Shown in pieces: positions 3,451-8,341 of a stretch of DNA of 64,000 nt. Made by a program: the position numbers and the translations under genes. The stretch's first letter is position 1; the number at the start of each line of letters is the position of its first letter. The notes under the pieces are model-generated. The model was not told the DNA's origin. It worked only from the letters and a program-made list of their open reading frames with translations, and ran no database searches. Origin of the DNA: Pelagibacteraceae bacterium (GTDB lineage: Bacteria; Pseudomonadota; Alphaproteobacteria; Pelagibacterales; Pelagibacteraceae); NCBI GenBank assembly GCA_018402735.1, contig JAGYIF010000001.1, positions 434,001-498,000 of the forward strand, given 5' to 3'.

Positions 3451-4422
3451 ATGAATAATAAAAAAATAATTTATACAGCAAAACAAGTAATTAACTCTGA
3501 AATCACAGCATTGAAAAAATTATCAAGTTCTCTTGATGCATCTTTTTGTCAGGCAATACAATTACTATATAAAATTAAAGGCAGGGTTATTTGTTGTGGG
3601 GTAGGAAAATCAGCAAAAATTTTAGAAAAAATTTCAAGCACACTGTCTTCCATAGGTGTGTCTAGTTTTACCCTAGACCCAACTGATGCTGGTCATGGTT
3701 CGTTAGGGGCAATACAAAAAAATGATGTGCTTGTGATTGCATCATTTAGCGGTAATAGCACTGAGCTGAATAACATCTTAAAATATGCTAAAAAACTATC
3801 TATTAAAATTATTGGTATTAGCTCAAACACACAGTCTCATTTAATCAAGCTATCTAATGTCAAAATTATAATGCCAAAAGTTGCCGAGGCTGGAAATAAA
3901 AATTTAGATATAATTCCAACTAGCAGCTCTACTAACCTACTAGCACTAGGTGATTGTCTAGCAATTAGTTTGGCAACTAAAAATAACTTTAACAAAAAAA
4001 AATTTGGTGCGCTTCATCCAAGCGGCTCCCTCGGGAAGAATTTATCCGAAATATCAGAAGTTATGATTACTGGAAAAAAAATTCCAGTTGTAAAGGATCA
4101 ATCATCTATTCAAACTATTGTTATTAAAATTTCATCCGGCAGACTTGGTTGTGCCGTAGTAGAGGATAAAACAAAGAAAATATGTGGATTTATATCTGAT
4201 GGAGACATGAATAGAGCGATCAATAAATATAAAAATATATTTAGCAAAAAAGCCAAAGATATAATGTCTAGAAAGCCAAAATCTATTCCTAGCGACTATT
4301 TAATCGTGGATGCTTTGAAGTTGATGAATAAAGAAAAAATAACTGCGCTTTTGGTAACAAAAAACAATAAGTTACAAGGACTAGTGCATATGCACAGTAT
4401 TTTATCTTTTCTGAACTCGTAA
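3451..4422 (+). CDS. kdsD: arabinose-5-phosphate isomerase (KpsF/GutQ family)
   Basis: Converts ribulose-5-phosphate to arabinose-5-phosphate, the first step towards Kdo, the inner-core sugar of LPS. 323 residues: an N-terminal SIS sugar-isomerase domain (about 35-185; GVGKSAKI at 50-57, PTDAGHGSLG at 77-86, ASFSGNSTE at 98-106, FGALHPSGSLGK near 185) followed by two CBS domains (about 205-320). Length and domain order match KdsD. It lies between rnd and lptC with gaps of 2 and 4 bases, so a single LPS-assembly operon is likely. kdsB for the same pathway lies at 52384-53109. Confidence 0.93.
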   Translation: MNNKKIIYTAKQVINSEITALKKLSSSLDASFCQAIQLLYKIKGRVICCGVGKSAKILEKISSTLSSIGVSSFTLDPTDAGHGSLGAIQKNDVLVIASFSGNSTELNNILKYAKKLSIKIIGISSNTQSHLIKLSNVKIIMPKVAEAGNKNLDIIPTSSSTNLLALGDCLAISLATKNNFNKKKFGALHPSGSLGKNLSEISEVMITGKKIPVVKDQSSIQTIVIKISSGRLGCAVVEDKTKKICGFISDGDMNRAINKYKNIFSKKAKDIMSRKPKSIPSDYLIVDALKLMNKEKITALLVTKNNKLQGLVHMHSILSFLNS

Positions 4423-4426
4423 ATTC

Positions 4427-5029
4427 ATGTCGCGTAGTAGAAAAATTCAAATAGCGCTCCTTACGCTTAGTGGAGTTATATTATTTTATAGCTACTATTA
4501 TTTACCATCACAAAATAAGGGCTCTATTAAAGTTGAACAAACATCAAGTCCAACAACTACTGTCATACCAGGGGAAGCAAAAAATACTTTTACAAATACT
4601 GAATATAAAAACCAAGATAGCAAAGGCCAGATTTTCACTACAAGGGCAGCAGAGTCTTACATTTATCAAAATAAGCCAGATTTAATTTATTTGATCAGTC
4701 CCTACTCATTTACAAAATTAGAAAAAGATCAGTCTTTAATCGAGATTAGATCTAAAACTGGACTTTTTGATAAGGCTAATAAAGTAACTTCTTATGATGA
4801 CGATGTAAGTATCAAAAATAAAAATTACATTGTCACCGCAAATTCTGCCAAGCATTTTGGGGAAAAAAATTTAATTGTGATAAATGGCGATGTTGTTATG
4901 AAAGATTTAACAATGGGATTATCTCATATTGCTTACTCTGATACTGTGGAAATCAATACAATAACCAATGATGCGGTTGCGTTTATGAACTCGACTAATG
5001 ACAAAGTTAAGGCTAAAAAATTCAAATGA
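4427..5029 (+). CDS. lptC: LPS export system protein LptC
   Basis: 200-residue bitopic inner-membrane protein: one transmembrane helix at about residues 8-25 and a periplasmic beta-rich part. The C-terminal half is rich in alternating hydrophobic/polar strands with the pattern seen in LptC/LptA OstA-type folds (for example TGLFDKANKVTSY and NYIVTANSAKHFG). LptC forms part of the bridge passing LPS from LptBFG to the outer membrane. It is placed by its position after kdsD and directly before lptB, with which it overlaps by ATGA. In most alphaproteobacteria lptA follows lptC; here no lptA gene separates lptC and lptB. Confidence 0.82.
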   Translation: MSRSRKIQIALLTLSGVILFYSYYYLPSQNKGSIKVEQTSSPTTTVIPGEAKNTFTNTEYKNQDSKGQIFTTRAAESYIYQNKPDLIYLISPYSFTKLEKDQSLIEIRSKTGLFDKANKVTSYDDDVSIKNKNYIVTANSAKHFGEKNLIVINGDVVMKDLTMGLSHIAYSDTVEINTITNDAVAFMNSTNDKVKAKKFK

Positions 5030-6036
5030 AAAAGCAAAAAATCACTATTGCAGCAACTATAGTTTCTGAACACGAACAGGTTAAGGCAAAAGAGACAAAT
5101 CAAAATATTTTTATTCTTAAAAAAGAATTTGCTGTGGTTCCTGATACAAAAGAAATACTTAATGATCACGAGAAAGTACCAGTATTAAATACTGAACCAA
5201 AAGTGGATTTAATTCAAGAACAAGATCCTTTTATTTTAAAAAAAGAATTTGAAGTTATCGAAAACAAATTAAGCAAAGAAAGTAATATTTTTAATTTAAA
5301 AAAAGGCATTAGTAAACTACTTGAAGTTAGAAAAGTTTCTAAATCATTAGGAAAAAAACCTATTTTAAAAAATATATCATTAACATTGCAGCCAGGTAAA
5401 ATTGTAGGCTTATTAGGACCAAATGGATCTGGAAAAACAACATTATTTAATCTGATTATTGGAAAAATTTTTCCTGATCAGGGAAGTATTCTCTTTAACA
5501 ATGAACCAATACAGAATTTGCCGATTCATCTTCGAAGTTTAAAAGGAATAAGTCTTCTTGAGCAGCACAAGGGTCTTTTTGGAAACATGACTGCTGAAGA
5601 CAATCTTTACGCTATTCTTGAGCTTCATATTAAAGATAAAGAAAAGATTTATGAAAGAATTGATGCTCTTTTAGCTTATTTTGATTTAGCTTATTTAAAA
5701 AATACAAAAGCAAATCTTTTATCAGGAGGAGAATATAAAAAAATTTCAATTCTGCAGAGGATTTGCAACCCAAATATATCAACCCTACTGTTAGATGAAC
5801 CTTGTGCTGCTCTTGATCCTTTATCCATTAATTCTCTGAAAGAATTCATTCTAGAATTAAAAAAAATTGGTCTCTCCATTTTAATTACGGATCACAATTA
5901 TTGGGCTATTGAGAATATTTTAGATAAAGCCTACTTAATTAAAGACGGACAAATTTTAGTAGAAGGAACAACAGATAAAATTTCAAACGACAAGAATGCT
6001 ATTAAATATTATTTAGGTGGAAACTTCAGGCTTTAG
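5026..6036 (+). CDS. lptB: LPS export ABC ATPase LptB with a repeat-bearing N-terminal extension
   Basis: Cytoplasmic ATPase that drives LPS extraction by LptF/LptG. The ABC domain covers about residues 98-336: Walker A GPNGSGKTT (131-139), Q-loop LLEQHKGLFG, signature LLSGGEYKK, Walker B LLLDEPCAALDP and switch His in LITDHNYW. LptB is normally about 240 residues; this protein has roughly 95 extra at the N-terminus. The extra part is charged and contains three copies of a short motif, IFILKKEF (28-35), PFILKKEF (68-75) and IFNLKKG (88-94). The 4-base overlap with lptC supports this start, although an internal start cannot be excluded. The extension does not look like a fused LptA. Confidence 0.88.
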   Translation: MKKQKITIAATIVSEHEQVKAKETNQNIFILKKEFAVVPDTKEILNDHEKVPVLNTEPKVDLIQEQDPFILKKEFEVIENKLSKESNIFNLKKGISKLLEVRKVSKSLGKKPILKNISLTLQPGKIVGLLGPNGSGKTTLFNLIIGKIFPDQGSILFNNEPIQNLPIHLRSLKGISLLEQHKGLFGNMTAEDNLYAILELHIKDKEKIYERIDALLAYFDLAYLKNTKANLLSGGEYKKISILQRICNPNISTLLLDEPCAALDPLSINSLKEFILELKKIGLSILITDHNYWAIENILDKAYLIKDGQILVEGTTDKISNDKNAIKYYLGGNFRL

Positions 6037-6367: not shown

Positions 6368-8341
6368 ATGGCAAACAAAAAGTGGTTTTTACCCTCAAAT
6401 AATATTTCTATAAACGGAGAAATCAATCTTCCTGGTGATAAATCAATTGGAATTAGATCAATTATTATTCTTTCCCAAAGTTACGGAATTTCAGATGTGC
6501 ACAATGTCTCTGATGGTGAAGATGTGCAAACAGCTATCCAAGCAATTAAAAAATTAAAAGTGCCTATAAAAAAAATAAGTGCAAATAGCTATCGTATTTT
6601 TGGTCTTGGAATAGGTTTCAAAAAATTCAAAGGAACAATTAATTTTAATAATAGTGGCACTACATTAAGATTGTTAACAGGCCTCTTAGCGACGTCACCA
6701 GTGGATGCAAAATTAATTGGTGATCACTCTCTATCAAAAAGACCTATTCGTATTATTTCGTTGATGGAACAATTTTTTGCAAGTTTTTACCCAAAAAATA
6801 AAAATTTCTTGCCCATACGTGTCACTGGTTTTGGAGAGTCGGCACAAACAGAAATTACGATAGACAAACCTTCAGCACAGATAGTATCCGCGTGCATTTT
6901 AGCCGGCATGAATAGTCATGGACTAACAACAATTGAAGCCCCTAACGCACAAAGGGATCACACAGAATTAATGCTAAAGCATTTAAAATACCCCATTACT
7001 GTAAAAAATCTTAAGTCAAAAAAAATAATTAAAATCATGGGAAAACAACTCCTTAATGCAGAAAAAAAATATGTTGTTCCTGGCGATCCTTCTTCAGCCG
7101 CTTTTTTAGTTGTTCTCGCACTACTTGCTAAAAATAGCAACTTAGAACTAAATAATGTTCTGTTAAATCCAAAAAGAATTGGCTTCCTTACTGTTTTAAA
7201 AAAAATGGGAGCAACAATAAATATTAAAAATAAACAAATAAGATATGGAGAGGTTACGGGAACTATTCAAGTTCGATCTTCTACTCTCCAAGGAATTAAA
7301 ATTGATAAATCGATTATCCCAAATATTATAGATGAAGTTCCAATTTTAATGGTGGCTGCGTCTTTTGCTAAGGGAGAAACTTTTTTTCCCAATCTTGATG
7401 AATTACGAATTAAAGAATCGGACAGATTATCTGTGATGGAAAACAACCTTACACAAGTAGGTGTTTTGGTTAAACGAAAAAATAATGATCTGACTGTTCT
7501 GGGACTTGGAGAGCAATTTTACTCTAGCAAATTAATTACGATTGATAGCTTTAAAGATCATCGTATTGCCTTAAGTTTTGCAGTTATGGCAATGGCTTCG
7601 CAAAAGAAAATTTTAATCAAAGATTTTGATTCTGCGAATGTAAGTTACCCCACATTCTTAAGTGACATAAAAAAAATTATAAACAAACAATCTAAACAGG
7701 TTATTATAGGAATGGATGGCCCTGTGGGATCAGGAAAAACTTCTTTAGCCAAATATGCGGTATCTAAAACAAAAAATAGTTTATTTTTAGATTCTGGATT
7801 GCTATATCGATTTCTAGCTAAAAAACATCTTGCAACAAAAAATAAAAAAATAAATGAAAAGTATTTAGTTAGAATTGCTAAAACTATTACTTTAAAAGAT
7901 CTTCAGTCATCTGACTTACATGCTCAAAAAATAAATGCCTTAGTCTCAACCATTGCAAAAATACAAAGCATTAGATCGGCATTGCTACCTGTTCAAAGAA
8001 ACATCATTTTCAATAATCCGTATCAATATGTTTTTGTCAGTGGTAGAGATATTAATTCTAAAGTAGCTCAAAATGCAGACTTAAAAATTTATATTGATGC
8101 ACCTATCAAAGTTAGAGCGCATAGAAGATTTTTGGAACTTAAGAAAAAAAACCCAAATATTTCCTATCAAGAAGTTCTTAAAAGTGTTGTTAATAGAGAT
8201 TATCTGGACAAAACAAGGTCAAATAGCCCTTTAATCAAAACGAAAGACTCTGTCTTGATTAATAATACGGGACGCAATATAAGATCCACCTTTGTAAAAA
8301 TACAAAAGTTAATAAGAAAGGTTCAGAGTAAACAATATTGA
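6368..8341 (+). CDS. aroA-cmk: bifunctional EPSP synthase - cytidylate kinase fusion
   Basis: One continuous 657-codon frame joins two enzymes usually encoded side by side. Residues about 1-440 are 3-phosphoshikimate 1-carboxyvinyltransferase (LPGDKSIGIRS; FNNSGTTLRLLTG; RDHTE; IIDEVPILMVAA; ELRIKESDRL; DHRIALSF), step six of the shikimate pathway. Residues about 445-657 are cytidylate kinase (P-loop DGPVGSGKT, LDSGLLYR, SGRDINSKVAQ), which phosphorylates CMP and dCMP. RDHTE and NPKR resemble the class II EPSP synthases, but glyphosate behaviour cannot be predicted. The GDKSISHR motif reads GDKSIGIR. The stop overlaps the TTG start of rpsA (TTGA), so the usual aroA-cmk-rpsA order is kept. Confidence 0.92.
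   Translation: MANKKWFLPSNNISINGEINLPGDKSIGIRSIIILSQSYGISDVHNVSDGEDVQTAIQAIKKLKVPIKKISANSYRIFGLGIGFKKFKGTINFNNSGTTLRLLTGLLATSPVDAKLIGDHSLSKRPIRIISLMEQFFASFYPKNKNFLPIRVTGFGESAQTEITIDKPSAQIVSACILAGMNSHGLTTIEAPNAQRDHTELMLKHLKYPITVKNLKSKKIIKIMGKQLLNAEKKYVVPGDPSSAAFLVVLALLAKNSNLELNNVLLNPKRIGFLTVLKKMGATINIKNKQIRYGEVTGTIQVRSSTLQGIKIDKSIIPNIIDEVPILMVAASFAKGETFFPNLDELRIKESDRLSVMENNLTQVGVLVKRKNNDLTVLGLGEQFYSSKLITIDSFKDHRIALSFAVMAMASQKKILIKDFDSANVSYPTFLSDIKKIINKQSKQVIIGMDGPVGSGKTSLAKYAVSKTKNSLFLDSGLLYRFLAKKHLATKNKKINEKYLVRIAKTITLKDLQSSDLHAQKINALVSTIAKIQSIRSALLPVQRNIIFNNPYQYVFVSGRDINSKVAQNADLKIYIDAPIKVRAHRRFLELKKKNPNISYQEVLKSVVNRDYLDKTRSNSPLIKTKDSVLINNTGRNIRSTFVKIQKLIRKVQSKQY

Follow-up and report, generated by a model that had tools for sequence, protein, structure and literature searches.

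Gene content of the lpt locus

The window, by which we mean the whole 64-kb stretch of DNA that was analysed (G000:C1:434001-498000), belongs to a draft genome, G000, of 1.32 Mb in 27 contigs and carries a gene called lptC with lptB immediately behind it (Table 1). The nearest named relatives of the source are the 'Pelagibacteraceae bacterium' isolates CP.31 (94 % identity), CP.55, CP.15 and CP.1. Excerpts of one study place CP31, CP15 and CP55 in SAR11 subclade IIIa.3 (PMC10030771), and for this reason the family of the source, f1, should be the Pelagibacteraceae (the aquatic SAR11 bacteria) and its genus, g1, one of those in subclade IIIa. The genera of f1 are numbered g1 to g14, of which g6 is probably LD12. 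Another family of the same order, f2, was used for comparison, and G and L numbers denote genomes and loci.

Table 1. Features of the lpt locus, with coordinates in the window
Feature	Position	Strand	Remarks
kdsD/kpsF-type sugar-phosphate isomerase	3451..4422	+	Upstream neighbour as in f2; TIGR00393 215.8 bits, cut-off 203.7
Gene called lptC, proposed LptC/LptA chimera	4427..5029	+	200 aa; single membrane helix, single taco domain
LptC-like half, residues 1-116	4427..4774	+	LptC model scores above LptA model
LptA-like half, residues 117-200	4775..5026	+	LptA 6.6 against LptC 2.7 bits, a weak case
lptB (ATPase of LPS export), N-terminally extended	5026..6036	+	336 aa; TIGR04406 231.1 bits; solved LptB structures are the top PDB matches
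N-terminal extension of LptB, residues 1-96	5026..5313	+	Present in 27/27 loci read from g1, g8, g10 and g6
Motif copy 1, IFILKKEFAVV, residues 28-38 (IFILKKEF 28-35)	5107..5139	+	Read from the translation
Motif copy 2, PFILKKEFEVI, residues 68-78 (PFILKKEF 68-75)	5227..5259	+	Read from the translation
Weak copy 3, NIFNLKK, residues 87-93 (IFNLKKG 88-94)	5284..5304	+	At the place of the family's short LptB tail
ABC ATPase domain	5314..6033	+	Walker A GPNGSGKT, LSGGE, Walker B LLLDEP, TDH; PF00005 102.2 bits, residues 114-261

Among 192 NCBIfam matches of the lptB product, TIGR04406 (residues 99-336) came first and PRK10895 second, with the next family at 119.1 bits, and a PDB search with its profile put LptB or LptB-type chains in all of the first 15 places. 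The TIGR04406 score of the LptB of G000 (231.1 bits for the window protein, 231.9 in the survey of class genomes) lies under the curated cut-off of 240, which is a naming threshold and not a biological feature; the cut-off was passed by 133 of 144 class genomes and missed by G000 and by G014 (219.6 bits). These scores mark LptB as diverged.

As the preliminary description proposed, a genuine extension of about 96 residues precedes a complete ABC domain with intact ATPase motifs (Walker A, LSGGE, Walker B and H-loop), and lptB follows lptC directly with an overlap of 4 bases. The same overlap of the lptB ATG with the lptC stop is present in all five intact g1 loci; in g6, g8 and g10 the two genes share 1-26 bases at this junction. 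An internal start, which that description had named as evidence to the contrary, is not indicated: downstream of the ATG, start-type codons in frame occur only at positions 37 and 60 (GTG), 121 and 165 (TTG) and 188 (ATG), so that an internal start would need a GTG within the extension or would lie within the ABC domain, and we rejected it. Further along the window (6368-8341, + strand), a 657-residue gene is a fusion of EPSP synthase (258.8 bits, residues 14-432) with cytidylate kinase (135.7 bits, residues 447-649).

Gene order and the search for LptA

The gene order in f2 is kdsD-lptC-lptA-lptB, with a short lptC of 164-173 residues (loci L028-L029, L033-L036, L038-L044) and an lptA of about 150 aa. 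Every f1 genus read has the order kdsD-lptC-lptB, with an lptC of 188-251 aa; the absence of lptA from its usual place, first proposed for the window, holds throughout these genera.

The preliminary description suggested looking for lptA elsewhere in the genome, and no separate gene came to light in the f1 genomes searched. Using PF03968, a separate LptA was found in 14/14 f2 genomes and in 0/23 f1 genomes. Nineteen of the latter gave some match at E<=1, and each f1 match could be assigned to one of three places: the gene preceding lptB, a frame of LptD size, or a short frame next to lptG. Pfam alone is no proof of absence, because PF03968 misses genomes that have LptB: of the 125 class genomes surveyed, 12 gave no match at E<=0.001 (two f1 genomes and 10 of 123 others), and four of these ten carry an LptB over the cut-off. 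Three of the four were read: G329 and G349 have a short frame ahead of lptB that is LptA-like as judged by eye rather than by score, and in G264 (L135) a gene of 349 residues matches LptC and LptA, each weakly. A profile of f2 LptA recovered 3/3 f2 genomes outside its training set and found no separate LptA in 18/18 f1 genomes, many of them closed, in which its matches were confined to the gene called lptC, to frames of LptD size (one, of 1017 residues, unread) and to two weak stray hits. Nor did a profile of the f1 lptC gene detect, at E<=0.001, another separate gene of this kind in the same 18 genomes, its further matches being LptD-sized frames or frames beside lptG. These searches make it highly probable that f1 has no free LptA.

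Two PF03968 matches within a single frame of about 250-410 residues were also seen in several alphaproteobacteria, some of the frames adjoining lptB (e.g. G334, G336, G307, G265). These frames may be double LptA proteins or further fusions.

Two halves of the lptC gene

Models of LptC and LptA were each built from 14 proteins of other alphaproteobacteria, taken from 14 of 20 loci. Six loci with no clean pair or with a fused gene were left out (L124, L132, L133, L135, L136 and L137), and the LptA start in L127 was set by guess. The lptC gene was taken from 51 of 53 loci, giving 38 f1 and 13 f2 rows, while L012 and L052 gave none; L029 and L040, both rows of A3, are one genome, so that the f2 rows represent 12 genomes. 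Loci L146-L148 were unused and L145 was scanned only.

The two halves of the gene scored differently against these models. Among the first 38 f1 genes, the N half favoured LptC over LptA in all 38 (medians 33.0 vs -1.7 bits) and the C half favoured LptA over LptC in 34 (medians 19.9 vs 7.1 bits). Addition of 11 f1 genes, eight of them from g4, brought the counts to 49/49 for an LptC-like N half, the window gene included, and 44/49 for an LptA-like C half; the five exceptions were three of four g2 genes and two of seven g5 genes. The window gene's own C half is low on both models (Table 1). Controls behaved as their names predict: the C halves of canonical LptC proteins, left out of their own model, favoured LptC (14/14), as did those of f2 LptC in 13/13 rows, so that 0/27 non-f1 LptC rows favoured LptA, and the C-termini of canonical LptA favoured LptA (14/14).

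Comparison of profiles gave the same division. Residues 117-197 of the f1 gene align with residues 71-150 of f2 LptA, reaching the C-terminus, with a probability of 95.5. In profile-profile searches the f1 N half scored 98.2 with LptC and 1.6 with LptA, and the C half 96.4 with LptA and 75.0 with LptC; the C half is colinear with the LptA model towards the C-terminus, covering in one case positions 88-168 of its 172. For the whole window protein, the only Pfam match is PF06835 (LptC; 25.2 bits, cut-off 21), and TIGR04409 reaches 22.9 bits, under its cut-off of 38. An AlphaFold2 model (pLDDT 74.4) has a helix at residues 3-25 and strands at 54-186, and Foldseek placed two solved LptC chains nearest to it, followed by LptA. 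In this model the window protein has, as an LptC should, a taco domain behind one N-terminal membrane helix. LptC sequence in both halves is not the rule in f1, where the C half is LptA-like in 44/49 genes. On these scores and alignments, the f1 lptC gene is probably a chimera that joins the first half of LptC to the C-terminal half of LptA. The preliminary description called lptA missing; as regards the family, the half-model scores and profile comparison make 'merged with lptC' the better term.

LptD, LptF and LptG

A search for lptF and lptG elsewhere in the genome had also been suggested, and both are present in G000, as is lptD, so that these partner genes of the putative LPS exporter lie outside the lptC-lptB locus. 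The LptD frame of G000 gave only a weak LptC-type Pfam match (17.7 bits) and was therefore identified from its position behind lptFG and its PxFYxP/HPDP motifs. A third LptF/LptG match of G000 (C12:152680-153750) lies in a G+C-rich part of contig C12. Within this one contig of 385,571 bases, G+C is 0.617 and 0.626 at L004 (99319-102966) and L074 but 0.298 at L007 (268580-272281), and because of this difference C12 looks either wrongly joined or host to foreign DNA.

PF19838 was unsuited to LptD, as it gave a match in 1/14 controls. The taco was measured from its first rung, picked by eye in all 27 proteins, to the HPDP[TS]V anchor; a usable frame was obtained from 7 of 18 canonical LptD loci, the other 11 being dropped, and L158 and L161 were anchored on a neighbouring motif. 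The rung-to-anchor distance is 145-148 residues in canonical LptD (n=7) and 147-148 in f2 (n=6). Within f1 it is 180 in g10, 189-192 in g1 and g6, 214-215 in g2, 240-246 in g3, g5, g9, g11 and one g4 protein, and 276 in another g4 protein. The taco is therefore longer in 14/14 f1 proteins, by 32-128 residues, in a sample drawn from g1-g6 and g9-g11. The longer f1 proteins show more readable units when set out in 31-residue lines, and the gains of 32, 41-44, 66-67, 92-98 and 128 residues suggest the addition of whole rungs. That this lengthening would compensate for lost reach is a reading to which we incline slightly. The smallest gains (32-44) fall in genera with the LptB extension, so compensation would there be partial at best.

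The N-terminal extension of LptB

Three LKKEF repeats had been proposed for the extension of the window LptB. Two near-identical copies are present, and the best 9-residue pair within the extension (FILKKEFAV/FILKKEFEV) has a BLOSUM62 score of 38, which was reached by 0/300 shuffles (maximum 30). The third copy is weaker and occupies the position of the tail, of type FRIIKFKKNKP or FRIKSFK, with which short f1 LptBs start. The extension had been called a domain, but Pfam found no match that would mark it as a folded one, and AlphaFold2 modelled the whole LptB poorly, ABC domain included, from only five sequences (pLDDT 40.7). The proposal that the extension does not resemble LptA stands, since no LptA match was found in the Pfam search, and a remnant of LptA was rejected on the same ground.

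Between G000 and G001, dN/dS is 0.31 for the extension and 0.017 for the ABC part, from which the extension appears to be coding and translated with LptB but weakly constrained and fast-evolving. Among five g1 species, 7/29 motif positions are invariant against 5/67 others (p 0.04), and 2/29 motif positions against 15/67 others changed between G000 and G001 (p 0.084), suggesting that conservation of the motif in g1 is only modest. A matrix made from the g1 copies found a best window at p<=0.05 in 18/20 extensions of g6, g8 and g10, and a second window in 9/20; these p values come from 500 shuffles and are uncorrected, and the 20 sequences are related. The motif can be written loosely as roughly [FL][IL]L-x-x-x-[FY]-x-[VI], in one to three copies. 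In the source genome the only exact matches to its pattern were the two in lptB; three one-mismatch matches lay elsewhere against four for the reversed pattern, and we rejected a motif common to other proteins of the genome on this count. When seven genomes were searched with the extension, lptB alone was matched, in four of the seven. The suggestion of short docking motifs keeps some plausibility from the recurrence of a loose version in the other three genera, but these searches brought to light neither a partner nor another protein that carries the motif.

A search for LptB in 197 f1 genomes gave a match at E<=1e-42 in 149; g6 and g10 include at least three genomes without a match at that limit. 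The extension was found in 27/27 loci read from g1 (6), g8 (3), g10 (7) and g6 (11). Twenty-five of these are intact, with extensions of 51-138 residues; L052 is cut by the locus end and the frame is broken in G005. In the latter (L012, G005:C1 ~525940-526140), extension and ABC part lie in different frames, with the break in the A-run of motif copy 2, and this may be a sequencing error, a slippage site or a real loss. One g8 species has an additional tandem copy of the motif (L014). The extension was absent from the LptBs read in g2, g3, g4, g5, g7, g9, g11 and f2, with g12-g14 outside the sample, and 32 of these proteins were included in an LptB tree of 57 rows. On this tree the extension needs at least two changes, 0/200 bootstrap trees had a single change and f2 joins g6 (95/78); a single origin is therefore not supported.

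This distribution bears on the preliminary description in two ways. Absence of the extension from relatives, which was to count against it, is half the picture, as seven f1 genera lack the extension and four have it. A link between the two features of its heading, the extension and the absence of lptA, is not supported: lptA is absent from its usual place in every f1 genus read, including those without the extension.

Discussion

The f1 exporter has in common with the canonical LptA-G system of Proteobacteria LptB, LptF, LptG, an LptC-type anchor and LptD, and its gene neighbours are those of f2 minus lptA. It differs in that no separate LptA was found, the C half of lptC is LptA-like, the LptD taco is longer and, in four genera, LptB is extended. 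In the canonical bridge the two edges of LptC contact LptF and LptA respectively, and the C-terminal edge of LptA meets LptD. Excerpts of a study of the Escherichia coli system describe the contact with LptF (PMC9972910). Because the f1 chimera would keep both outer edges, the first half of LptC and the second half of LptA, we infer a hand-off of LPS from LptB2FG through the LptC/A chimera to LptD without free LptA. The merger would date from the base of f1 or close to it: lptC and lptA, adjacent genes for related beta-taco proteins, would have become one gene that keeps the membrane anchor and first half of LptC and the C-terminal half of LptA, and the periplasmic taco of LptD would have gained about one to four rungs of roughly 31 residues, regaining part of the lost reach. 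Taken jointly, the merger and an LptD lengthening with this hand-off seem to us a little better than an even proposition. Separately, LptB of four genera would have acquired a motif tail ahead of the family's short tail, and this tail might dock, most simply, where the short tail itself would sit on LptB2 or its membrane partners.

The LptA-like character of the C half could also have arisen if lptA was simply deleted and the C half of a complete LptC then drifted towards LptA from a need to meet LptD. PF06835 as sole Pfam match, the first place of LptC in Foldseek, the five of 49 C halves that do not favour LptA and the LptC alignment of the C half, which still scores 75.0, are what deletion and drift would leave. 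It is nevertheless unlikely, as the C half runs colinear with the LptA model and scores higher with LptA in profile comparison, and 0/27 other LptC rows behave in this way. We think it somewhat less likely still that a strongly diverged separate lptA was overlooked elsewhere in f1 genomes: PF03968 is known to miss genomes having LptB, and G329 and G349 each have a short frame ahead of lptB that is LptA-like by eye, but the f2 profile was negative in all 18 f1 genomes while recovering every f2 genome tried, and the f1 lptC-gene profile revealed no second separate gene. That the system moves a lipid other than LPS, and hence has a different bridge, is improbable, lptC adjoining a kdsD/kpsF-type isomerase whose role is presumably in Kdo supply. 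An Lpt-type system that works without LPS is described for Borrelia in excerpts of PMC10353723, which speaks for such a possibility.

A different set of alternatives concerns the tail of LptB. It may well be tolerated and mostly neutral, its repeats arising from slippage in A-rich DNA and binding nothing, as would fit its dN/dS relative to the ABC part, its variation in length and copy number, the modest conservation of the motif and the A-runs, in one of which the G005 frame is broken. Against neutrality, the frame is open in 25/27 loci of four genera and the motif stands above shuffles in 18/20 extensions (uncorrected). A docking role for this tail is possible but doubtful, and a neutral tail is somewhat likelier. 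The tail might instead make up for the absent LptA, given that both features occur in one gene pair. This is very improbable: LptB is cytoplasmic and LptA periplasmic, so the one could not replace the other, and the differing spread of the two features, together with the lack of LptA similarity in the extension, largely refutes it. Returning to the chimeric exporter, its fullest form, in which the chimera docks LptF and LptD, the LptD rungs roughly keep the reach and the subclade III LptB tail tethers or clusters transporters, would be a natural six-component bridge; this form is tentative, and we give it rather less credence than the merger and lengthening themselves.

Related arrangements exist elsewhere. 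Excerpts on the E. coli LptF R212G suppressor describe a six-protein bridge without LptC (PMC9972910), which is like the f1 proposal in having one component fewer and a single taco protein from LptF to LptD; as far as those excerpts go, it is a laboratory mutant in which LptA is kept, whereas SAR11 would have a natural merged protein and no separate LptA. Another alphaproteobacterium, G295 (L132, 1239-2282), carries ahead of lptB a 347 aa LptC-LptA fusion gene that matches the LptC model at residues 10-200 (117.8 bits) and the LptA model at 203-340 (106.0 bits). Merging of lptC and lptA has thus occurred elsewhere too, again in one gene before lptB, although G295 has both domains whole and the SAR11 protein would be a single taco of two halves. 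The Borrelia system, with six Lpt orthologues, differs from f1 in that LptA and LptC are separate genes in the order lptC-lptA-lptB, according to the same excerpts (PMC10353723). In the open-access literature, outside which most subscription papers lie, we recognised no report of these features among the titles and abstracts listed on loss or fusion of LptA, on extended LptB, on lpt genes in SAR11 or Pelagibacter and on Lpt phylogenomics.

LptA is regarded as essential to the LPS bridge, and abstracts of work on thanatin present it as a target for antibiotics. If the proposal is true, a natural lineage without free LptA would be a test of how short the bridge can get and of which edges are indispensable, and would show whether LptD can take over reach. 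The annotation of lptC in SAR11 genomes would also change.
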